A stretch of 64,000 bases of DNA. It comes from Microlunatus panaciterrae (GTDB lineage Bacteria > Actinomycetota > Actinomycetes > Propionibacteriales > Propionibacteriaceae). A model generated the notes under the pieces. The model searched no databases. It was not told the origin of the DNA and saw only the letters and a list, made by a program, of their open reading frames with translations. The position numbers and the translations under genes are program-made. Shown here piece after piece: positions 10,486-20,979 of the stretch. The number at the start of each line of letters is the position of its first letter. Within the stretch, counting starts at the first letter, position 1. The DNA is taken from contig NZ_JAFBCF010000001.1 of the NCBI RefSeq assembly GCF_016907535.1, forward strand, positions 1,612,001 to 1,676,000. The letters are read 5' to 3'.

Positions 10486-11574
10486 TCAGGCACCTGCCCT
10501 GGCTAGTGCGTTGACGGCGGTGACAATCCGTTCGAGGTCGGCGTCGGAGAGCGACGGGTGCACCGGCAGCGACAGGCACTCCTGGGCGGCCTGTTCGGTG
10601 GCCGGCAGGTCAACCGGCGACTGGAACGGCGCCAGCCGGTGGTTGGGGATGGGGTAGAACATGCCGGAGCCGATGTTGTGCTCCTCGCGGAGCGCCTTGG
10701 CCAGGCCGTCGCGGTCGTCGGCGACCCGGATCGTGTACTGGTGGTAGACGTGGATCGCACCGTCCGCCACTGGCGGGGTGGTGACGCCCTCAAGATGGGC
10801 GGTCAGGTATGCAGCGTTCGACTGCCGCTGTTTGGTCCAACCGTCGACCTTGGTCAGCTGCACCCGGCCGATGGCGGCGTGGATGTCGGTCATCCGGTTG
10901 TTGAAACCCACCACCTCGTTCTCGTACTGCCGCTGCATGCCCTGGTTGCGATAGAGGCGCAGCAGCCGCTCGATCTCCGGGGTGGCCGCGGTGACCATCC
11001 CACCCTCACCCGAGGTCATGTTTTTCGTCGGGTAGAGCGAGAACATGGCGAACGAGCCGAACGCCCCTACCGGGGTTCCGCCGAGGGAGGCGCCGTGGGC
11101 CTGAGCCGCGTCCTCGAAGATCTGCAGCGAGTGCTTGTCGGCGACCGCCTGCAGGCCGGCCATGTCGGCCGGATGGCCGTAGAGATGCACCGGCATGATG
11201 CCGACGGTCCGCTCGGTGATCGCGTTCTCGACCGAGACGGGGTCGAGACAGAAGCTGTCCGCCTGGATGTCGGCGAAGACCGGTGTCGCGCCGGTGAGCG
11301 CCACCGAGTTGGCGGTTGCGGCGAAGGTGAACGAGGGCACGATCACCTCATCTCCCGCCTTGACCCCGGCCGAGAGCAGGCCCAGGTGCAAGCCGGACGT
11401 CCCGGAGTTGACCGCGACGCAGGCGCGTCCGAGTCCGAAGTGCTCGGCGTACTCCTGCTCGAAGGCGGCCACCTCAGGACCCTGCGCGAGCATGCCACTG
11501 CGCATCACGCGGTCGACGGCGGCACGCTCCTCCTCTCCGATCAGCGGTTTGGCAGGCGGGATGAAATCGGTCAT
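10486..11574 (-). CDS. wbpE: DegT/DnrJ/EryC1 aminotransferase, probable UDP-3-keto-GlcNAcA 3-aminotransferase
   Basis: A 362-aa PLP-dependent sugar aminotransferase starting at MTDFIPPAKP. Family motifs: G-T-S-G-L-H (58-63) for the phosphate, FEDAAQAHGA with D155 pairing with the PLP nitrogen, and the PLP lysine K184 in SLYPTKNMTSGEGG. The closing region has the usual YHQYTIRV and LPVHPSLSDADLERI segments. WbpE uses glutamate to aminate the 3-keto group made by WbpB. Its start overlaps the acyltransferase stop (ATGA). Confidence 0.87.
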   Translation of the reverse strand: MTDFIPPAKPLIGEEERAAVDRVMRSGMLAQGPEVAAFEQEYAEHFGLGRACVAVNSGTSGLHLGLLSAGVKAGDEVIVPSFTFAATANSVALTGATPVFADIQADSFCLDPVSVENAITERTVGIMPVHLYGHPADMAGLQAVADKHSLQIFEDAAQAHGASLGGTPVGAFGSFAMFSLYPTKNMTSGEGGMVTAATPEIERLLRLYRNQGMQRQYENEVVGFNNRMTDIHAAIGRVQLTKVDGWTKQRQSNAAYLTAHLEGVTTPPVADGAIHVYHQYTIRVADDRDGLAKALREEHNIGSGMFYPIPNHRLAPFQSPVDLPATEQAAQECLSLPVHPSLSDADLERIVTAVNALARAGA

Positions 11575-12215
11575 GAGGTGGTGGTCTCCATGGACGTGTC
11601 GGGGGTTTCTGAACTGGCTGGCGTCGAGGTAAGAAGGGTGAGCGACTCGTTGTCCTGGGCGTAGAGCTCGCCGGTCTGCGGGCAGCGCCACCGGTCGTCG
11701 GCGGTCTGCTCCAGTGGGACACCGGCCCGGCCGACCCACCCGATCCGCTTGGCCGGGACGCCGGCGACCAGCGCGAAGTCCGCCACATCCTTGACCACCA
11801 CTGAACCGGCCGCGACCAGCGCCCAGGCGCCGATGGTCACGGGGGCCACGCAGACGGCCCGGGCGCCGATCGAGGCGCCGGTGCGGACGGTGACACCGAC
11901 GGCTTCCCAGTCGTCGCCACGCTTGAGCTGCCCATCGGGGGTGATCGAGCGGGGGTAGTGGTCGTTGGTGAAGACCACGCTCGGGCCGACGAAGACGCCG
12001 TCCTCGAGGATCGCCGGCTCATAGACCAGGGCGTAGTTCTGCAGTTTGCAGTTGTCGCCCATCCGTACGCCCGAGCCGACGTACGCGCCACGTCCGATCA
12101 CACAGTTCTGGCCGAGGATGGCACCCTCGCGCACCTGCGCCAGATGCCAGATCGAGGTTCCCTCTCCAAGTTGGGCATCCTCTGCAACATCTGCCGTTGC
12201 CTGAACGCGGGCCAT
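11571..12215 (-). CDS. wbpD: Hexapeptide-repeat acyltransferase, probable UDP-GlcNAc(3NH2)A 3-N-acetyltransferase
   Basis: The ATG at 12215 (MARVQATADVAED) has an AGGGAGA ribosome-binding site 6 nt before it, so the longer open frame is rejected. The 214-aa protein has left-handed beta-helix repeats from residue 5 to about 150, including the GTSIWHLAQVREGA and CVIGRGAYVG segments typical of WbpD/QdtC sugar N-acetyltransferases, a FTNDHYPR segment with the catalytic-site His, and the AGVPAKRIGWVGRAG cap. A short C-terminal tail (CPQTGELY) has the look of a small beta hairpin. It would acetylate the 3-amino group, finishing UDP-GlcNAc3NAcA. It is first in the four-gene unit. Confidence 0.83.
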   Translation of the reverse strand: MARVQATADVAEDAQLGEGTSIWHLAQVREGAILGQNCVIGRGAYVGSGVRMGDNCKLQNYALVYEPAILEDGVFVGPSVVFTNDHYPRSITPDGQLKRGDDWEAVGVTVRTGASIGARAVCVAPVTIGAWALVAAGSVVVKDVADFALVAGVPAKRIGWVGRAGVPLEQTADDRWRCPQTGELYAQDNESLTLLTSTPASSETPDTSMETTTS

Positions 12216-12577: not shown

Positions 12578-14392
12578 TTAGCGGGCGAGCCGCAGCCGGC
12601 TGTTGCCGGTGGACGACACGTACTCGTGCCTGGCACCGATCTCGGCCGGGTCGATCGGGGGGACGGGGACGTGGGCGATCAACGGGTGATGCTTGAACAC
12701 CCCGCGCTCCTCGTCGCTGAACAGCACCTCGTGCATCTTCTCACCCGGACGGAGGCCGGTGAAGACGATGTCGATCCGGGCACGGGACTGGGCCACCAGC
12801 CGCTTGGCGACGTCGAGGATCTTGATCGGCTCGCCCATGTCGAGGACGAGCACCTCCCCCGGCTCACCGATGGCGGCGGCCTGGATGGTCAGCTGGCAGG
12901 CCTCCGGGATGGTCATGAAGAACCGGGTCACCTCGGGGTGGGTCACGGTGACCGGCCCACCCGCCTTGATCTGACCGGCGAAGGTGTGCAGCATCGACCC
13001 ACGGCTGCCGAGCACGTTGCCGAACCGGACCGAGAGATAGGTGCCCTCTGAGCGGTGCGCGAACCAGGAGGTGAGCTGTTCGGCCAACCGCTTGGTGCTG
13101 CCCAGCACGCTCGACGGGCTGGCCGCCTTGTCGGTGGAGATGTTGACGAAACGGCTGCAGCCATATCTCTGCGACATCTTGAGCACGTTGAGGGTGCCCA
13201 ACACGTTGGTCTTCCACCCCTCCTCCGGATACTGCTCCAGCATCGGCAGGTGCTTGAGGGCGGCCGCGTGCAAGACGACGTCCGGTCGGTGTGCGGCGAA
13301 GACCGCATCCAGGGCCGCCTCGTCGCGGATGTCGGCCAGCACGATGTCGTTGGTGTCCAGCAGTGCCCGTCCATAGATGGAGAGCTGTACGGCGTGCAGG
13401 GCGGACTCGTCGCGGTCGAGCAACACCAGCTCCTTGGGACCGAACCGGTAGACCTGACGGGCGAGCTCGGAGCCGATCGAGCCGCCGGCGCCGGTGACCA
13501 GCACCGTGCGGCCGGTGAGGTAGTCGGCGATCTCGTCGAGGTTGGTGTCGATCTGGTGCCGTCCCAGGACGTCGGCGATGTGGATCTCGCGGACATCCTG
13601 GACCGAGACGCGGTTGTCGATCAGGTCAGCCAGCGGCGGCAGGATCAGGAAGCGTAGACCGGCGTTCTCGACAATGGTGGAGACCTCGCGGACGAGTTCT
13701 GCACTGGCCTGGGTGATCGCCAGAATGACGGTGCTGGCGCCCTTGTTCTCGGCGGCCTCGAGAATCTGATGCCGATTACCGAGGACGGGAATACCCAGCA
13801 GGCGCAGATTGCGCTTTGCCCTCGAGTCGTCGATCAGGCCGACCACCTCGTACGGGGCACTCTCGTCGGTGGCAATCGAGCGGACCAGCTGGTGGCCGGC
13901 GTCGCCGGCACCGTAGATCAGCACCCTCTCCGCCCCTTGCCGGGAGAGGACACCACGGCTGGTCCAGGCACGGTAGCCCCAGCGACCCGCGCCCATCAGC
14001 ATCAGGGCGATCGGCGGTGTGAGCACGGCAGTGGCCCGCGGGAAGGTCTGGGTTCCGATGAATCCGAGGAACACGACACCGAGCACCACGGCCCCGGCGA
14101 GAGCGGTGGCGGCGAGCCCGAAGCTCTCCTCGAAGCTGGCGGTGCGGTAGCGACCGCGATAGAGCATCAGCAGGGTGCCGAACACGACCTGCAGGATGCA
14201 GGCCAGCGCGAGGTAGCCGAAGATGACCGACCACTGCATGGCGCTGAGGTTAAAGTCATAGCGGGTCGCCGCCACCAGCAGAGTGGCAACCACCCAGCTG
14301 GCGAGGTCCCACCCGACTCGGGCTAGGCGTCGGTGAAGTGAGGGGTCCTGCACAGTGGTCTCCTGTTCCTGGCCTCGCCCCCCGACGCGCAT
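12578..14392 (-). CDS. Membrane-bound nucleotide-sugar dehydratase (CapD/WbpM/FlaA1 family)
   Basis: I choose the ATG at 14392 because AAGGA lies 6 nt upstream; a TTG 20 codons earlier is also open. Four membrane helices occupy residues about 25-135. Two Rossmann-type domains follow: a CoA-binding-like one (GAGDAG, 161-166) and the SDR catalytic domain (GAGGSIGSE, 301-309; HAAALKHLP, 375-383; STDKA, 419-423; TKR, 433-435). The WbpM branch lacks the usual SDR Tyr and uses Asp/Lys of the S-x-D-K motif, as here. It converts UDP-GlcNAc to a UDP-4-keto-6-deoxy sugar, a precursor of QuiNAc/FucNAc-type residues. It is separated from the wbp genes by a repeat array. Confidence 0.87.
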   Translation of the reverse strand: MRVGGRGQEQETTVQDPSLHRRLARVGWDLASWVVATLLVAATRYDFNLSAMQWSVIFGYLALACILQVVFGTLLMLYRGRYRTASFEESFGLAATALAGAVVLGVVFLGFIGTQTFPRATAVLTPPIALMLMGAGRWGYRAWTSRGVLSRQGAERVLIYGAGDAGHQLVRSIATDESAPYEVVGLIDDSRAKRNLRLLGIPVLGNRHQILEAAENKGASTVILAITQASAELVREVSTIVENAGLRFLILPPLADLIDNRVSVQDVREIHIADVLGRHQIDTNLDEIADYLTGRTVLVTGAGGSIGSELARQVYRFGPKELVLLDRDESALHAVQLSIYGRALLDTNDIVLADIRDEAALDAVFAAHRPDVVLHAAALKHLPMLEQYPEEGWKTNVLGTLNVLKMSQRYGCSRFVNISTDKAASPSSVLGSTKRLAEQLTSWFAHRSEGTYLSVRFGNVLGSRGSMLHTFAGQIKAGGPVTVTHPEVTRFFMTIPEACQLTIQAAAIGEPGEVLVLDMGEPIKILDVAKRLVAQSRARIDIVFTGLRPGEKMHEVLFSDEERGVFKHHPLIAHVPVPPIDPAEIGARHEYVSSTGNSRLRLAR

Positions 14393-14407
14393 GACAAATC
14401 CTTGCGA

Positions 14408-14413
14408 AGCATA
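14408..14413 (-). promoter_or_regulatory. Candidate -10 element of the capD/wbpM-like gene
   Basis: TATGCT read on the minus strand lies 15 nt before the chosen ATG, leaving a short leader that just accommodates the AAGGA ribosome-binding site. The same hexamer with a good -35 is seen before the GT2 gene at 25962. No strong -35 is evident at the right spacing here, so confidence is low. Confidence 0.35.
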
Positions 14414-14638
14414 GGACACAAGTGCCGGGGAAGGATAGTCGAGCAGTGTCAACTCTCAACGTAACGACTCGCCGCAGATATTCTCCCTAATGTCGAATTT
14501 GCCTTCGTCTGAGCCGTACCGTCCGGGAATCTGGCCGAATATCCACATTTCACTTCCACTTGAACCGTCGTGAAATGCCGCCCGGGTTCGATCGATGTTC
14601 ACCTGGAGTTCAGCACTGCTTCGCCTGCACTATCGGCG

Positions 14639-14651: not shown

Positions 14652-15731
14652 ATGAGCACAGCCGGGGAGGTGACCGACGCCACGGCCCAGCCTGACCAGC
14701 CCGATGTCGCAGCGCTCATTCCCATCGTCCGCCGGATCGTCTTCGCCCGCGTGGCCGACCGGGCCGCCGCGGACGATCTGGTCCAGGAGACGCTGGTGCG
14801 GGTGCTCGCCGCATCGGAGCGGGTCGAACCGGGCATGCTCGAGCCGTACGCCATCGTCACCGCCCGCAACGTGGTCGCCTCGATGTGGAAGCAGGAGGAC
14901 CGGCATCGGCGCAACCAGCACCGGGTCGTCGACCTGGCGCCGGCGCAGGAGCCGGACGAGAACCTCCTGGAGCGGGAGGAGCACGATGCCGTGACGGAGG
15001 CTCTGGCGCGGCTGTCGGAGCGCGAACGCCGCACGCTGCTGGCGCATGAGGTGTCGGGTGAGGACACCCGCTCGCTGGCCAACGAGCTGGGGGTGTCGGC
15101 TGGGGCGGTGGCCGCACAGCTCAACCGGAGCAGGGCCCGGCTCCGGGTCGAATATCTGCTGGCCCTCGAACAGGCCGAACCCCCTACCGACCGGTGCCGA
15201 CCGGTCCTGTTCGCACTGTCGATCGGTGACCGACGGCGCCAGCGGGAGGTCGACGCGGCTCGGCACCTGCTGGAGTGCAACCTGTGCGCCCGATTGAGCG
15301 AGCCGTTGATGGAGCGCGGCCAACCGAATGACAACGAGACCCGCATTCGCATCCGCTCGGACGCGGACATCGTGCTGGCCCGCCAGGGGGCCAGAGAGCT
15401 GGCCGCCAGGCTGGAATTCTCGCGCACCGAGCTGACGGTGATCGCCACGGCTGTGTCCGAGATCGCGAGAAACATCGTCCGTTTCGCCGGGCAGGGGGAG
15501 ATCCTGGTCGAGCTGCTCGAGAATCCCCGACCTGGCGTACGCGTGGTGGCCCGCGACACTGGTCCGGGCATCGAGGACGTCGATCAGGCCATGGCCCAGG
15601 GCTACAGCACCTACCACGGGCTCGGGCTGGGTCTGCCGGGGGCGCGACGGTTGATGGATGAGTTTGCGGTCGTGTCGGAACGCGGCCGTGGAACGACGGT
15701 GACCATGACAAAGTGGCGACAGGGAGGATGA
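14652..15731 (+). CDS. ECF-type sigma factor fused to a ZAS-like motif and an RsbT-type serine kinase domain
   Basis: A 359-aa three-part protein. Residues about 20-90 are sigma region 2 (FARVADRAAADDLVQETLVRVL; DxxQE core). Residues about 112-172 are region 4 with a helix-turn-helix (LSERERRTLLAHEVSGEDTRSLANELGVS). H205-C209-C212 form an HX3CX2C motif (HLLECNLC) like the zinc anti-sigma (ZAS) motif. Residues about 232-355 are a GHKL ATPase with N-box E270xxxN274, DTGPGI (302-307) and GLGLGLPG (323-330), closest to RsbT. RsbT phosphorylates RsbS/RsbR in stressosomes; here the downstream gene pair supplies both. The stop overlaps the RsbR gene. The domain order suggests the sigma factor is held by its own kinase domain in the stressosome. 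An assembly or frameshift artefact is unlikely, as the frame is continuous. Confidence 0.88.
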   Translation: MSTAGEVTDATAQPDQPDVAALIPIVRRIVFARVADRAAADDLVQETLVRVLAASERVEPGMLEPYAIVTARNVVASMWKQEDRHRRNQHRVVDLAPAQEPDENLLEREEHDAVTEALARLSERERRTLLAHEVSGEDTRSLANELGVSAGAVAAQLNRSRARLRVEYLLALEQAEPPTDRCRPVLFALSIGDRRRQREVDAARHLLECNLCARLSEPLMERGQPNDNETRIRIRSDADIVLARQGARELAARLEFSRTELTVIATAVSEIARNIVRFAGQGEILVELLENPRPGVRVVARDTGPGIEDVDQAMAQGYSTYHGLGLGLPGARRLMDEFAVVSERGRGTTVTMTKWRQGG

Positions 15732-15733
15732 GC

Positions 15734-16642
15734 ATGAACGAAGAGTCAGCGACCGCTCGTCAGCTGAGTGCGGATTTCCCCACCCTCGACCGTGAGGACG
15801 AGGATCAGCTGTTGCCGCAGTTGGTGGCGCACCTGCGCGAGCACCGAACCAGGCTCCGGCAGGAGTGGGCCAGTCGCATCCAGGGTGCGCACCTGCTGCA
15901 GGCGATGACCCCGCAGGAGATGGCGGCCGAGACCACCTCCGTGTATGACAACTATGTGGAGGTGCTCGAGACCGGAAGCGTCGAGGCCCTGCAGCACTAC
16001 GCCCGTGACCTGTCCGAGCGGATCATTCCCCGCGGCGTTGAGACGCACGAGGTGGTCGGGATCGTGCTGCTGCTGCGGGACGTACTCGCCCGGTCGCTGT
16101 TCGGCAAGTATCAACGCGACTTCGGTCTGCTCAACCGGGTGCTGGACGCCTACGAGCCGGCCGCGAACCGCATCGCCAACACCGTCGCCGTCAGCTTTGT
16201 CGAGGAGCGGGAGCGGGTCATCCGCCAGCAACAGGACTCCATCCGCGAACTGTCCACCCCGGTGCTGCCGGTGCGGGAGAGGTTGCTGATCCTGCCGATC
16301 ATCGGCGTTCTGGACACCGAACGCGCCCGCCAGCTGACCGAACAGCTGCTGAGCGGCATCCGCACCCATCGAGCCAAGGTCGTGGTCATCGACATCACCG
16401 GCGCGCCAGACGTCGACGAGGCGGTCGCCAACCACCTCGTCCAGACGGTCGACGCCTCGCGGCTGATGGGTGCCAGCGTGATCATCACAGGCCTGTCCCC
16501 CGAGATCGCCCAGACTCTCGTCACCATCGGAGTCGATCTGAGCAAGATGAACACCATCGGGGACCTGCAGGGCGGTCTCGAGGAGGCCGAGAGACTGCTC
16601 GGCTTCACGGTGAGTCGACGGGATGGAACGGCGGGGCCGTGA
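15734..16642 (+). CDS. rsbR: RsbR-like stressosome scaffold/sensor
   Basis: AGGGAGG ends 6 nt before the ATG at 15734, so this start is preferred to the GTG at 15713 or ATG at 15728. The 302-aa protein has an all-helical N-terminal sensor half (about 20-160, non-haem-globin-like in RsbR relatives), a linker helix ending RELSTPVLPV, and a STAS domain (about 180-292). The Thr equivalent to B. subtilis RsbRA T171 is kept (D194-T195-E196). The T205-equivalent position appears to be Glu (DITGAPDVDEA, E229), from memory of the RsbRA sequence. It would form the stressosome core with the RsbS protein encoded by the overlapping downstream gene. Confidence 0.9.
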   Translation: MNEESATARQLSADFPTLDREDEDQLLPQLVAHLREHRTRLRQEWASRIQGAHLLQAMTPQEMAAETTSVYDNYVEVLETGSVEALQHYARDLSERIIPRGVETHEVVGIVLLLRDVLARSLFGKYQRDFGLLNRVLDAYEPAANRIANTVAVSFVEERERVIRQQQDSIRELSTPVLPVRERLLILPIIGVLDTERARQLTEQLLSGIRTHRAKVVVIDITGAPDVDEAVANHLVQTVDASRLMGASVIITGLSPEIAQTLVTIGVDLSKMNTIGDLQGGLEEAERLLGFTVSRRDGTAGP

Positions 16643-17043
16643 ACGGAGGTCCGGCGCTGGTCTCCATCTTGCGGCAGGGTTCGTATCTGATCGCGTCGAT
16701 CCACACTGCTCTCGACGATTCCCAGTTGGTCAGGTTTCAGCAGGATCTGATCAACCAGATCGGACGTTACCGGTCCCGAGGTGTGGTGATCGACGTCGCG
16801 GCGCTCGACGTCCTCGACTCGTTCGGCTCCAAGACGCTGAGGAACGTGGCCGAGATGGCCAGGCTGCGCGGGGCCATCACCGTCATCGTGGGGATCCAGC
16901 CCGATGTCGCGTTTGCGATGGTTGAGCTGGGCATGGGCACTGGATCGGTGCATACCGCCCTGGACCTGGAGGAGGGGCTGGCCTACCTGAACAGCCACCT
17001 GGCGTCCCCCGCCGCCCCCGGCGTGGTCGGCTTCCAAGACTGA
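16639..17043 (+). CDS. rsbS: RsbS-like single STAS-domain antagonist
   Basis: A 134-aa protein that is nearly all STAS domain; the GTG start overlaps the rsbR stop as GTGA. The phosphorylation motif is conserved: VIDVAALDVLDSFGSKTLRN, with S61 in D60-S61-F62 matching the RsbS serine phosphorylated by RsbT. The signature IVGIQPDVAFAMVELGM follows. In known stressosomes RsbS with RsbR binds and holds RsbT; phosphorylation of this Ser releases it. Here the held partner would be the kinase domain of the sigma-factor fusion two genes upstream. Confidence 0.92.
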   Translation: MNGGPALVSILRQGSYLIASIHTALDDSQLVRFQQDLINQIGRYRSRGVVIDVAALDVLDSFGSKTLRNVAEMARLRGAITVIVGIQPDVAFAMVELGMGTGSVHTALDLEEGLAYLNSHLASPAAPGVVGFQD

Positions 17044-17044
17044 G

Positions 17045-17335
17045 ATGGCCTCCGTCGACGACCTTCAACGCGACTACCGCGCGGCGTTCCTGCGTTACCT
17101 CCCACGCGGGGAGGAGGCCCCGCTGCACATGGGCTACGAGATCGGCCGCTCGGCCGTCGTCGATGGGTTGAGCATCCTCGACGTGGTCCAGGTCCACCAC
17201 GACGTACTGCTGGAGGTACTCCGAGACACGCCGAGGGATGACCTGCCTCGTGTCACCAGTTCCGCATCGGAGTTCCTGGGCGAGGTGCTGGCGACCTTCG
17301 ACATGACGCAGCGCGGTTTTCTCGCCGAAGGCTGA
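17045..17335 (+). CDS. Stand-alone RsbU N-terminal (RsbT-binding) domain protein
   Basis: A 96-aa helical protein beginning one base after the rsbS stop. The whole sequence matches the N-terminal domain of RsbU phosphatases as I know it: DLQRDYRAAFLRYL, HMGYEIGRSAVVDGLSILDVVQVHH (29-52) and ASEFLGEVLATFDMTQRGFL. No PP2C catalytic domain follows, either in this gene or within 250 bp. In B. subtilis this domain is where freed RsbT docks to activate RsbU. A domain on its own could bind the kinase part of the sigma fusion as a holder, a release factor or a competitor of the stressosome. Confidence 0.82.
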   Translation: MASVDDLQRDYRAAFLRYLPRGEEAPLHMGYEIGRSAVVDGLSILDVVQVHHDVLLEVLRDTPRDDLPRVTSSASEFLGEVLATFDMTQRGFLAEG

Positions 17336-17623
17336 CCTTTCCCGACACGGACTCCTCCACCCCACGTGCATGACGCGGATCAGCAACTTTCGTTGGTCCC
17401 ACCGACGCAGCGAGCTGATCTTCGTTGGCGCTATTCCGCGAGATCTCGTGGTCCAACCCGACCTTGGCGAAGTCAGTGACGGCTTTCGGCCGCGTCATGG
17501 CCGACGTACGGGGGCGTCTTCACTCATGTAAGCCCCACGAAGGGACCGCTTCTGACCCTGGCAAGGGCAGATCAGAAAGGCACCGCCTCCATGACGCACC
17601 ACGCACAGGAAGAGAGATCCACC
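17336..17623 (+). other. Leader region before a secreted-protein gene, with a small stem-loop
   Basis: No gene is seen in this 288-bp gap. Between about 17550 and 17578 TTCTGA and TCAGAA can pair around an inner CCCT/AGGG stem, giving a possible stem-loop in the 5' leader. A short peptide could start at the ATG at 17591 in frame with the downstream gene, but the better start is 17624. I do not recognise a named riboswitch. Confidence 0.35.
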
Positions 17624-18172
17624 ATGAAGAAGCACAGCATCAAAGGGCTAGCGATGCTCGTCGCACTCGCCGCCATGATTGCGCTGGGCATCGGTGGGGC
17701 CACCACCGCAAGCGCGGCACCCACAGCCACGGCGGACCCGACCGTCGTTCCGGTTACCGGCACGCTCGCCGACGGCACCGGCGCGGTGGCCGGCACCTTG
17801 GACGTGACGAAGTTCGTCAACAACAGCGGGCAGCTGACGGCTGTTGGCACCTTTACCGGCACGGTGACCGATGCCGCCGGCCAGGTCACCAGCGGCACCC
17901 AGCAGGTGAGCGTCCCCGTCGACCTGGCTCAGAGCTCTGGTAGCTGCCAGATCCTCGACCTGGTCCTCGGCCCGCTGGATCTCGACCTGCTCGGTCTGCA
18001 GGTCCACCTCGACACGGTTCACTTGAACATCACCGCACAGTCGGGCCCGGGCAACCTGGTGGGCAACCTGCTGTGTGCAGTGGCAGGACTGCTGAACGGC
18101 CCGACCGGCCTGAACGCAATCGTGACTCAGATCGCCAACCTGCTGAACCAGATCCTGGGCCTCCTCGGCTGA
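17624..18172 (+). CDS. Secreted protein of unknown function
   Basis: The start MKKHSIKG at 17624 has AGGAAGAG 6-7 nt upstream. The 182-aa product opens with a classical Sec signal peptide (KKHSIK, then a hydrophobic core to residue about 27, cleavage likely after TASA). The mature part has a beta-rich N-terminal half (VPVTGTLADGTGAVAGTLDVTKFV) and a leucine-rich C-terminal half with two cysteines (C in SSGSCQILDL and NLLCAVAG) that could form a disulfide. I recall similar hypothetical secreted proteins in other actinobacteria but no function. A strong terminator lies about 100 bp downstream. It directly follows the stressosome operon and could be one of its targets. Confidence 0.8.
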   Translation: MKKHSIKGLAMLVALAAMIALGIGGATTASAAPTATADPTVVPVTGTLADGTGAVAGTLDVTKFVNNSGQLTAVGTFTGTVTDAAGQVTSGTQQVSVPVDLAQSSGSCQILDLVLGPLDLDLLGLQVHLDTVHLNITAQSGPGNLVGNLLCAVAGLLNGPTGLNAIVTQIANLLNQILGLLG

Positions 18173-18338: not shown

Positions 18339-18833
18339 TCACGAGGGACGGCAGTCGGTCACCCAGAACACCTTGTGCTTCGTGTCCGCTCCCTGCGACC
18401 CATCGGCCTCTATGGTCAGTTTGACGTGATAGCCCTGCACTGGGTGCGGGGCACCGAGTCGAGGCAGCTGGCTTCCCAGGGTGTAGGTCCTCTGGGCGTC
18501 GACGTCCGTCCCGCCTCCGGCCGCATCTCCGCCGATGAAGACCCTGTCGGTACGAAGGACGACGCCGTCACCTGTCGGCGCCTGGCCGGTGAAGGTCACC
18601 TTCGCATACAGCGGGCCCTCGTCGAAGCCATAGAAGTCGATCTGGAACGGACAGCCCACATGCGGCTCGTTGTCGGGTGCCGAGTCGAACGGTGTGGCAT
18701 CGACCTTCACCGTCCCGTTGTTCCCAGCCGGATCCGCGGCGAACGCGGGTGCGGACAGGCCGGCGACCGCGAGACATCCTGCGGCGGTCAGGGCGACGCT
18801 GGCAGCGCGCACCATGCGGGTCATCTTCTTCAT
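18339..18833 (-). CDS. Secreted protein of unknown function (conserved in actinobacteria)
   Basis: The ATG at 18833 (MKKMTRMVRAASVAL) is preceded by AAAGGGGGAG at 8 nt, so the longer frame is rejected. The 164-aa protein has a signal peptide cleaved near PAFA-ADP. The mature domain is a compact beta-rich unit with GTVKVDATPFDSAPDNEPHVGCPFQIDFYGFD, a pattern I recall from many actinobacterial secreted proteins of unknown role. Two cysteines (in HVGCPF and near the C-terminus, VTDCRPS) may form a disulfide. It faces the other secreted protein across a shared terminator. Confidence 0.8.
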   Translation of the reverse strand: MKKMTRMVRAASVALTAAGCLAVAGLSAPAFAADPAGNNGTVKVDATPFDSAPDNEPHVGCPFQIDFYGFDEGPLYAKVTFTGQAPTGDGVVLRTDRVFIGGDAAGGGTDVDAQRTYTLGSQLPRLGAPHPVQGYHVKLTIEADGSQGADTKHKVFWVTDCRPS

Positions 18834-19008
18834 GTCTTGCTCCCCCTTTGGCGACACCACGCCAGCCGACGGCCAGCCCCCCATGGTGTCGTCGCCTGCA
18901 GATTAACGTGATCAACAAGACTGCACAGCCTGACGAAGGAAATCCCGCCCATGATCAAACTCAGCGAGTTGCCATGGGCCCTGGATGGGGCCCCAGTGCC
19001 GTGAGGAC

Positions 19009-19020: not shown

Positions 19021-19860
19021 ATGACATCCTCACCGGTGACCGGTGTTGAACCGGTTCTCTCCGAAGACCAGATCGCCCAGTTCCACGAGCAGGGCTACGT
19101 GATCGTCAAGGGCGCACTCAGCCGCGAGGAGGCCGATCACTACCGCCGGTCGATCGTGTCCCTGTTTCCGCCCAATCTCGACCTCCCGGCCACCTGGGGC
19201 TCCTACGAGGGTCGGATCAAGCCGATGGCCTCGGCGGACAACCACACCTTCGACACCCCCGAACTGCTCCCGTTGATGACCAACGAGAAGCTCTACCGGG
19301 CCGCGAGCCAACTGCTGGAGTCCACCGCCCTGCGGGTGCTGGACGGGTCGGTCGGGATCACGTTCCGCAACGACGCCCATCCCGACCAGCCGCTGAGCCA
19401 GACGCTGCACATCGACGCATCGGTGCCCAACTCGGTCGACGACTTCACCTTCGAGACGCGTGAGCTCCAGGTCGGCGGGTGCTACTACCTGACCGATGTC
19501 GAGCCCAACGGCGGGGGGATCCACGTCGTACCGGGTGGCCACAAGATCGTCGAGGCCGAGGCGCGGGCTGCCGGTGGTGGCGGTCGGCATCTGCATCAGG
19601 AGTGGAAGCAGATCAAGCACCTGCAGAGCATCGAGGTGACCGGCGAGGCTGGCGACTTCGCGCTGCTGCACCACCTGATGCCGCACGGCGCCTCGCACAA
19701 CCGCAAGGCCACCACCCGGATCGCCTACTTCGTCCGATGGGTGCGTGAGGACCAGACCTGGGGTGTCGGACAGAAGCCGGAGCCAGGCAGGTACGACCAG
19801 GCGCAGCTGGACGCCATGGGTGACTTCGGTCGCAAGCTCTTCGGTGTCGAGGACTGGTAA
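19021..19860 (+). CDS. Phytanoyl-CoA dioxygenase (PhyH) family Fe(II)/2-oxoglutarate oxygenase
   Basis: A 279-aa PhyH-family protein. The iron ligands are visible: HxD in TLHIDAS (about H130 and D132) and the distal His in MPHGASHNRK (about H221), with an R in TTRIAYFVRW for 2-oxoglutarate. The N-terminal VLSEDQIAQFHEQGYVIVKGALS is typical of the family. The substrate is unknown; relatives hydroxylate lipids, small molecules or natural-product intermediates. It is followed by an overlapping small gene and an HTTM membrane protein, and the three probably form one unit. Confidence 0.88.
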   Translation: MTSSPVTGVEPVLSEDQIAQFHEQGYVIVKGALSREEADHYRRSIVSLFPPNLDLPATWGSYEGRIKPMASADNHTFDTPELLPLMTNEKLYRAASQLLESTALRVLDGSVGITFRNDAHPDQPLSQTLHIDASVPNSVDDFTFETRELQVGGCYYLTDVEPNGGGIHVVPGGHKIVEAEARAAGGGGRHLHQEWKQIKHLQSIEVTGEAGDFALLHHLMPHGASHNRKATTRIAYFVRWVREDQTWGVGQKPEPGRYDQAQLDAMGDFGRKLFGVEDW

Positions 19861-20173
19861 TCGGGTCGGAGCCGCGGCCGTCCTAGCGGTCATCCTGCTG
19901 CAGGTCGCGGTCCCCCTGATCGCCAACTGCCTGCAGCCGCCGACCCGGTTCGGGTTCCAGATGTATTCAGGCCTCGGGTCCACCGAGGTCAAGATCATCG
20001 GGCGCGACGGCGAGTCGATCCCGTTCGACCAGCAGGCCGCACTGCCCGGACTGCTCCGGCCAGAGTTCGACTGGACCCGGGACCTGCCGGAGTATCTCTG
20101 CGCACACGTGTCCGGGGCTCACCAGGTGACTGTCGTCCAGTCGACGCATCGCAGGACGCTGACGTGCCCTTGA
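19844..20173 (+). CDS. Small membrane-anchored protein, unknown
   Basis: A GTG at 19844 gives a 109-aa product that overlaps the dioxygenase end by 17 nt and ends in TGATG with the next gene. After a short basic start there is one hydrophobic segment (AAAVLAVILLQVAVPLIA), then an exported soluble domain with FGFQMYSG and KIIGRDGESIPFD. I do not recognise a named family, but the sequence has coding character and HTTM proteins are often preceded by such a partner. The start is uncertain because no clear RBS is seen. Confidence 0.6.
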   Translation: MSRTGNRVGAAAVLAVILLQVAVPLIANCLQPPTRFGFQMYSGLGSTEVKIIGRDGESIPFDQQAALPGLLRPEFDWTRDLPEYLCAHVSGAHQVTVVQSTHRRTLTCP

Positions 20174-20979
20174 TGGACCTCGAGGTCGACGCGCGCCCAG
20201 TCGCTGCCGTGCGCATCGGCGTCGGTTTGGCGACGGTGATCAACGTCCTCGAGATGTCTGTGCTGCTGTCGGCGATCGCCAACGGCAAGGTCGCACTGCC
20301 CGTGATGTCCTGGATCGCGCGACCAACCGAGCCGGTCATCATGATCTATCTGGTCGTCGGCGTTGCCGCCGGGCTGGCCCTGTCGGTCGGCTACCGAGCC
20401 TCAGCCGCCGCGCTGATCTCGGTGCTGGCCAACGTCGGCGTCTTCCTGTGGGACCAGCAGACGTACAGCAGCCACCGGTTCCTTGCGACCCTCCTGCTGG
20501 CCTATCTCGTCTTCGCCCGATCGGACCGGGTCTGGTCGCTCGGACGCAGACACCGCGACGGCGCGGCGACAGTCCCGTGGTGGCCCCAGCTGCTGATAAT
20601 GACGCAGCTGTCCGTGCTCTACTTCTTCGCCGCCTTGAGCAAGATCAACCCGGTGTTCCTCAGCGGCAGAGCCCTCAAGTCCTGGGTCCGTTGGCCGCTC
20701 CCCGACCAGGTATTTCCCCTACTTGCCGTCGGTACGATCCTCACCGAGTTCTTCCTGGCCGGGGCGCTCTGGTTCCGACCGACGCGGCGGGCGGCCGCCC
20801 TGCTGGGCCTGGGACTGCACGCCTCGATCGTGGTCATGATGGCCGACCAGACCCTCCCCTTGATCGCCTTCTCCCTCCTCTGCGTCCCGCTGTACGCGCT
20901 GTTCCTGACCCGTCCTGCCGGAGGTGCGCGCTCTGGCCCTTCGACAGGCTCAGGGCACGTACACCTATCACGCGCTTGA
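20173..20979 (+). CDS. HTTM-domain integral membrane protein
   Basis: The 268-aa protein starts at the ATG overlapping the previous stop (a GTG at 20164 is an alternative). It has about six membrane segments and the family pattern YSSHRFLATLLLAYLVF, then LSVLYFFAALSKINPVFLSG, shared by the 'horizontally transferred transmembrane' domain related to vitamin-K-dependent carboxylases. The soluble carboxylase part is missing. The last 15 residues (SGPSTGSGHVHLSRA) are encoded by a REP-like repeat copy, so the native C-terminus has probably been extended or replaced. Confidence 0.75.
   Translation: MDLEVDARPVAAVRIGVGLATVINVLEMSVLLSAIANGKVALPVMSWIARPTEPVIMIYLVVGVAAGLALSVGYRASAAALISVLANVGVFLWDQQTYSSHRFLATLLLAYLVFARSDRVWSLGRRHRDGAATVPWWPQLLIMTQLSVLYFFAALSKINPVFLSGRALKSWVRWPLPDQVFPLLAVGTILTEFFLAGALWFRPTRRAAALLGLGLHASIVVMMADQTLPLIAFSLLCVPLYALFLTRPAGGARSGPSTGSGHVHLSRA

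Follow-up and report, generated by a model that had tools for sequence, protein, structure and literature searches.

A sigma factor fused to an RsbT-type stressosome kinase in Microlunatus panaciterrae, with a probable target gene beside its operon

Stressosomes are large particles that sense stress; those of the Bacillus and Listeria type join the RsbRST module to RsbU, RsbV, RsbW and SigB, and known stressosome relays are long and hide the immediate output. In mycobacteria, rsbR-rsbS-rsbT-rsbX-rsbUW acts on SigF, with kinase and sigma factor separate and the long relay kept (PMC8115616). RsbT and RsbU_N, the N-terminal domain of RsbU, also control other outputs, with a diguanylate cyclase and a histidine kinase in print (eLife, PMC12143880). 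A separately studied family comprises the extracytoplasmic function (ECF) sigma factors ECF48, ECF52 and ECF53, which carry a zinc finger, likely of the zinc anti-sigma (ZAS) type, and membrane helices (PMC8999054), SCO4117 being one example (PMC5826349). Here we analyzed a 64,000-nucleotide stretch of the Microlunatus panaciterrae genome (the window) with a four-gene operon in which an ECF-type sigma factor ends in an RsbT-type kinase, linking stressosomes with ECF sigma factors that bear a fused Cys/His segment. The reading we favor, at a probability of about 70%, is that the sigma factor docks in the stressosome via its RsbT domain, is freed on phosphorylation of RsbS Ser61 and drives a promoter adjacent to the operon. 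The operon consists of:

14652..15731, + strand, sigma-RsbT fusion gene, from the ATG at 14652 to the stop at 15731, 359 residues
15734..16642 (the start may be the ATG at 15728), + strand, rsbR, N-terminal sensor-type domain plus STAS, from Pfam and a match to solved RsbR
16639..17043, + strand, rsbS, STAS protein with Ser61 in a DSF site, from Pfam and a match to solved RsbS
17045..17335, + strand, stand-alone RsbU N-terminal domain of 96 residues (Pfam RsbU_N, 6.3e-14)

The fusion protein runs from ECF sigma2 (residues 19-89) through sigma4 (103-172) and a Cys/His helical segment (182-221) into an RsbT-type GHKL kinase (229-355), with residues 227-357 forming a GHKL domain that reaches the protein end. 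Pfam placed Sigma70_r2 at 21-84 (E 1e-10), Sigma70_r4_2 at 112-164 (E 4e-9) and HATPase_c_2 at 239-354 (E 7.5e-12), bearing out a sequence-only reading that had seen sigma regions 2 and 4, an HX3CX2C motif and an RsbT-like kinase in one 359-residue frame. Sigma2 and sigma4 are its only sigma regions, as in ECF (group 4) factors, and the N, G1 and G2 boxes of an RsbT GHKL kinase are present, as a domain of the fusion with no free protein. Among fusions, the motifs of RsbT and the DLVQET motif of sigma region 2.2 are both conserved. The M. panaciterrae genome, a single 4.07-Mb contig, holds the fusion once, and five further matches cover the sigma part only.

The genes behind the fusion are tightly packed: an ATGA overlap joins the fusion gene to rsbR at 15728-15731, if the first rsbR ATG is used, a GTGA overlap joins rsbR to rsbS at 16639-16642, and rsbU_N starts 1 nucleotide past the rsbS stop. 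The rsbR product has a variable N-terminal domain (RsbRD_N, below the Pfam cut-off at 20.5 of 24.3 bits) and a C-terminal STAS domain above it, and its residues 33-293 match solved RsbR 9o4h (E 2.8e-36). The rsbS product, a single STAS domain, aligns with solved RsbS (E 6e-25); its DSF site holds Ser61, a position at which one otherwise matching PDB chain has Ala. The proposal of overlapping rsbR and rsbS genes followed by a lone RsbU N-terminal domain is confirmed. Among the four operon genes there is no rsbV, rsbW or sigB, the rest of the genome lying outside that search. The module resembles that of Bacillus and Listeria in its RsbR sensor and STAS domain, RsbS phosphosite serine, RsbT GHKL kinase and RsbU_N fold, and differs in that RsbT forms the C-terminus of an ECF-type sigma factor and RsbU_N comes without a phosphatase. 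It shares actinobacterial stressosome genes with the mycobacterial SigF system, whereas kinase and sigma factor are one protein here.

We then sought relatives of the fusion. Of 7997 candidates scored, 3000 passed E ≤ 1e-3 and the best 120 were listed; the 119 besides the query were 72-82% identical over 92-100% of its length, with Nocardioidaceae, Geodermatophilus and Blastococcus among the names. In genome samples that overlap one another, full-length fusions occurred in 4/296 genomes of the phylum, 4/394 of the class, 4/196 of the order, 14/119 of the family of G085, 2/21 of the family of G205 and 5/20 of the genus (one broken in frame), with further carriers in Nakamurella aerolata and Janibacter terrae (the latter G955). 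These low counts point to a patchy distribution. Across 24 distinct loci the order fusion-rsbR-rsbS-rsbU_N was constant wherever the genes were present, as far as contig ends allow (L088 is cut inside rsbR, L085 inside rsbU_N); rsbR was matched in 24/24 loci, one partially, and RsbS Ser61 was kept in 23/23 (L088 is cut off). That an assembly error or chance read-through joined two genes is practically out of the question, since the fusion recurs in the 119 listed homologues, at least 72% identical over at least 92% of the query, and in 24 loci, four of them within single-contig genomes (G000, G296, G407, G479); the two halves also exist separately in other actinobacteria. Our search of the open-access literature, which left most subscription papers outside its reach, found no published account of a sigma factor joined to RsbT. 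Databases already label such proteins as sigma factor or RsbT, so the proteins are on record and it is the system for which no account was found.

We also compared loci with fused and separate RsbT. RsbU_N ended within 125 residues of the start of the BLAST match in 22/22 complete fused loci, none of which joined RsbU_N to an RsbU phosphatase in the operon. In 13 loci with a separate RsbT (L031-L043; L053 and L054 lie outside the set), RsbU_N was present in 10, always as part of a longer frame, and was not found in the other three, wider stretches included; other separate RsbT loci with tested flanks gave no RsbU_N match. A catalytic domain accompanied RsbU_N in 9/10 of these proteins: a SpoIIE phosphatase (L035 and L040-L043, the latter four also with HATPase_c_2), HD_5 (L031, L039), HisKA, HATPase and receiver domains (L032, where RsbU_N falls below the Pfam cut-off), or HisKA_3 and HATPase (L033). 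In the loci compared, RsbU_N is embedded in a larger protein when RsbT is separate and is on its own when RsbT is fused, so the output domain sits on either RsbU_N or RsbT; the rows are related by kinship, and we therefore give no p-value for this reciprocal pattern. RsbT and RsbU_N would act as plug and socket to the output in both kinds of module, with the output on RsbU_N in the other RsbRST modules (SpoIIE phosphatase, HD and histidine kinase in this set) and on RsbT in the fusion system. It appears that the output domain has shifted from RsbU_N, the receiver, onto RsbT, the messenger. Elsewhere in seven fusion genomes searched, six held 1-4 SpoIIE-type phosphatases and the single-contig G407 held none at E ≤ 1e-5, other PP2C types falling outside the search.

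We consider it rather likely that the messenger is the sigma factor itself and RsbU_N a free trans partner, such that one RsbS phosphorylation would set transcription at a dedicated promoter without RsbU phosphatase, RsbV or RsbW; the earlier idea of a collapsed relay holds up in this form, and the interpretation around it is partly supported. That RsbU_N serves as an alternative docking partner of the fusion is plausible. Anti-sigma genes commonly lie beside ECF genes, and rsbU_N stands directly behind rsbS in fused loci without an output domain of its own, so RsbU_N could instead be an inhibitor, a sink that catches the released RsbT domain and leaves sigma active only where RsbU_N is limiting or blocked. 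We hold this to be a lesser possibility: the RsbU_N proteins of split systems resemble effectors, as do the published cases (PMC12143880).

The helical segment between sigma and kinase carries the following feature:

15195..15287, + strand, codons C182 to C212, a ZAS-like C-x22-H-x3-C-x2-C site, noted for its invariance in homologues

The zinc-type motif of the sequence-only reading is present (H205-C209-C212), and what that reading missed is C182, a possible fourth ligand, which makes it a four-residue site in a helical segment shared with membrane-tailed sigma factors. All four residues were invariant in 26/26 aligned homologues, chosen from the best 120 listed, and were kept in 23/23 intact fusions of the collected loci (L085, with a frame break in a draft genome, and L095, a duplicate of L008, were left out). 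The segment did not reach the Pfam zf-HC2 cut-off; Pfam scans gave no ZAS domain in the fusion, and that annotation was dropped. Against four ZAS-type segments of the same genome, hhalign returned a weak local match (16 columns, P 0.0006). The fusion match list, with no row covering residues 176-226 alone, barely probes this segment.

The first 225 residues of the fusion occur without RsbT in nine proteins (L024-L030, L065, L066; 42-58% identity), in which, judged by eye, a hydrophobic stretch and then an outer domain come after the sigma part, and the four Cys/His residues are kept in 9/9. As in ECF48, ECF52 and ECF53, sigma2 and sigma4 precede a Cys/His helical segment, the ECF group of these relatives being unassigned here; those factors continue into a membrane helix and outer domain, whereas the fusion has a cytoplasmic RsbT kinase instead, its GHKL domain running to the end (judged without a transmembrane predictor). 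The Cys/His segment could be the main switch, a redox- or metal-controlled ECF device like the ZAS class, with the stressosome merely tuning level or place. The conservation of the four residues in fusions and membrane-tailed relatives and the fused zinc finger of ECF48/52/53 (PMC8999054 and PMC5826349) speak for such a switch; the linkage of rsbR, rsbS and rsbU_N in every locus uncut by a contig end and the preserved RsbT catalytic residues speak against it, and we regard it as improbable.

Compared with 23 separate RsbT-like proteins, the RsbT part of the fusion shows 44-63% identity (leaving aside two rows from Brevibacillus at 34%), and rsbR and rsbS adjoin 19 of the 21 tested, L009 and L039 being the exceptions. 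In a tree of 48 RsbT domains, the fused L086 and L087 cluster with separate forms (97/93), forcing at least two changes; a single origin of the fusion is therefore not supported, and several fusion events, or a later split, are possible on this tree. The L009 protein, from Terrabacter sp., is RsbT-like, stands by itself and shares 62% identity with the fused domain; its 8-kb flanks gave no match to rsbR or rsbS. In L010, from Amycolatopsis, rsbR-rsbS-rsbT are followed by further frames that resemble regulators and by an ECF-like sigma factor whose end, by eye, is a C/H/C/C-type segment; this may be the same design in split form.

Next to the operon lie a conserved ECF-type promoter and a probable target gene, both predicted and newly described here:

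17491..17522, + strand, predicted promoter, CGCGTCATG-N14-GCGTCTTCA, 68 nucleotides ahead of the first SEC1 ATG
17591..18172 (start 17591 or 17624), + strand, SEC1, secreted-protein gene, predicted direct target from linkage and promoter

SEC1 stands beside the fusion operon in 14/24 loci (on the same strand in 11, of which 9 have it downstream and 2 upstream; downstream but reversed in 1; and upstream with divergent orientation in 2). It is single-copy where present, in 14/23 fusion genomes, 13 of these copies lying inside the locus, and occurs in 2/9 non-fusion genomes. The family has 5568 matches at E ≤ 1e-3, of which the 120 listed are named hypothetical protein or nameless, and a conserved core, LGPLxLxLLGLxVxLDxVxLNITAxxGPGNLLGNLLCAVAGLL; no Pfam domain matched above cut-off, and a structural model (pLDDT 70) found no PDB fold at E ≤ 0.001. 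Near the fusion, and behind the same promoter, four loci (L088, L090, L162, L169) have SEC1-like proteins that begin with MTVLxF or MTVIAF and lack a signal peptide.

In a dyad count over 13 SEC1 upstream regions, some from closely related genomes, the top pair (10 regions) was an inverted copy of the promoter, and GTCAT-N18-TCTT, which corresponds to CGCGTCATG-N14-GCGTCTTCA, occurred in 8; the best pair reached 3-4 regions in each of 10 shuffle rounds. Our first matrix was partly trained on the tested sites, and we therefore built an independent one from 8 sites that do not precede SEC1, all from fusion genomes. It placed a site before 12/13 linked SEC1 genes, with scores of 13.9-30.9 and p ≤ 0.010 in every case (200 shuffles), and before 0/3 unlinked or no-fusion copies (p 0.12-0.34); in other regions, single shuffles scored up to 19.6. 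The counted miss, G495, had its region wrongly set owing to a long N-terminal frame, and the first matrix finds its site (24.9). The window site scores 30.9 and is the only match above 12 in 64 kb, shuffled windows giving 2, 3 and 3. Across 32 genomes, the short core had 64 exact matches versus 25 for the reversed pattern, and a longer pattern, drawn from some of the scanned loci, had 50 matches with at most one mismatch versus 7 reversed, 41 of them in the 23 fusion genomes. Exact matches to the longer pattern fell in 7 fusion genomes in 14/15 cases and once in the fusion-less G454; exact sites therefore go with the fusion, whereas the loose matches are in part background. In fusion genomes, sites are followed by genes for a PRC-barrel/DUF2382 protein, for a membrane protein of the mechanosensitive-channel type, for a SEC1-like protein that lacks a signal peptide and possibly for a GAF/ANTAR protein (161 nucleotides away, with another frame nearer); these look like stress and envelope functions.

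Several candidates were discarded. A sense reading, GACGC-N14-CATGACG, was dropped after genome scans put the mirror copy with its CGTCTTCA end close before SEC1; promoter-like matches within rsbR (VDASRLMGASVIITG) were set aside as coding conservation; and a 711-residue frame after a site in L084, with no Pfam match, was not used.

In the mechanism we propose, the fusion would sit on the RsbR/RsbS stressosome of unstressed cells, anchored by its RsbT domain, and the Cys/His segment, between sigma and kinase, would keep sigma closed. Stress would lead the RsbT domain to phosphorylate RsbS Ser61 and, for the majority of species, RsbR at Thr or Ser as well, and RsbS phosphorylation would free the whole sigma factor. 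Once released, the fusion would bind the stand-alone RsbU_N through its RsbT face; RsbU_N most likely would hold sigma free and open rather than re-inhibit it, and sigma with RNA polymerase would start at CGCGTCATG-N14-GCGTCTTCA promoters, first at the adjacent SEC1. Such a system may carry stress sensing to gene expression in one step in many actinobacteria. With output and messenger in one polypeptide and a probable promoter named, transcription from a single site could give a direct readout of stressosome release, and the promoter could serve as a reporter to find which stress an actinobacterial stressosome senses.

A number of observations weigh against this mechanism. The AlphaFold2 (AF2) model of the fusion has an unreliable inter-domain arrangement (pTM 0.48), and a ZAS relation is suggested by motif and helix pattern, the profile comparison being weak. 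The two RsbR phosphosite positions, which we take to be B. subtilis T171 and T205, differ: the first is Thr or Ser in 17/23 loci, and the second is never Thr (0/23) and is Glu in 14. The residue after it is Thr in 11 loci, so a shifted second site is conceivable; PDB chains have Thr, Ala or Glu at the second position. RsbU_N carries His where B. subtilis RsbU has Tyr28. Among the ten RsbU_N proteins of split loci, one (L038) carries just a GAF domain, without any output. No SEC1 match lies near the fusion in 10/24 loci, the linked SEC1 of L007, outside the 13-copy set, lacks a clear site, its best match scoring 7.7 at -153, and L083, L085, L086 and L087 have no site within one mismatch of the core. 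The short core has 1 exact match in the window's genome (17493-17518) versus 2 reversed, and the nine non-fusion genomes hold 9 loose matches, one of them exact. In the window, the fusion gene has no promoter copy ahead of it, which leaves autoregulation unsupported; the sites upstream of the fusion in L084, L088, L092 and L097 face away, and we dropped this idea.

Some of these points, namely the fusion loci without a site, the L007 gene and the exact match in G454, together with inverted copies that resemble an operator pair, would fit a SEC1 promoter that belongs to another sigma factor or a DNA-binding regulator, its linkage to the fusion being historical. We think this unlikely: the CGTC core and the 21 nucleotides between the starts of GTCAT and CGTC are ECF-like, the site accompanies SEC1 when fusion-linked (12/13 versus 0/3), and further sites precede other genes in fusion genomes.

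The inverted copy also occurs in the window:

17350..17375, - strand, second, inverted promoter-like copy facing away from SEC1, 1 mismatch to the core

Many loci have such a copy, often ending GGCGTCCGG, on the upstream side of the SEC1 promoter and ~100-145 bp from it, where it frequently covers the stop codon of the gene before; in several loci this gene is rsbU_N, and in L100 it is a 1203-residue frame. The copy apparently moves together with SEC1, although L081 and L082 have the promoter and inverted copy as a pair without SEC1; an antisense promoter or small RNA is possible. Convergent to SEC1, 18339-18884 (-) encodes a second predicted secreted protein, with no match in the other collected fusion loci, and further downstream lie a PhyH dioxygenase (19021-19860) and an HTTM membrane protein (20164-20979). 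Upstream of the operon are a polysaccharide nucleotide-sugar dehydratase type protein (12578-14452, -; Polysacc_synt_2) and, by eye, an aminotransferase-like frame (10486-11739, -), apparently a surface-glycan cluster adjoining the stressosome operon.

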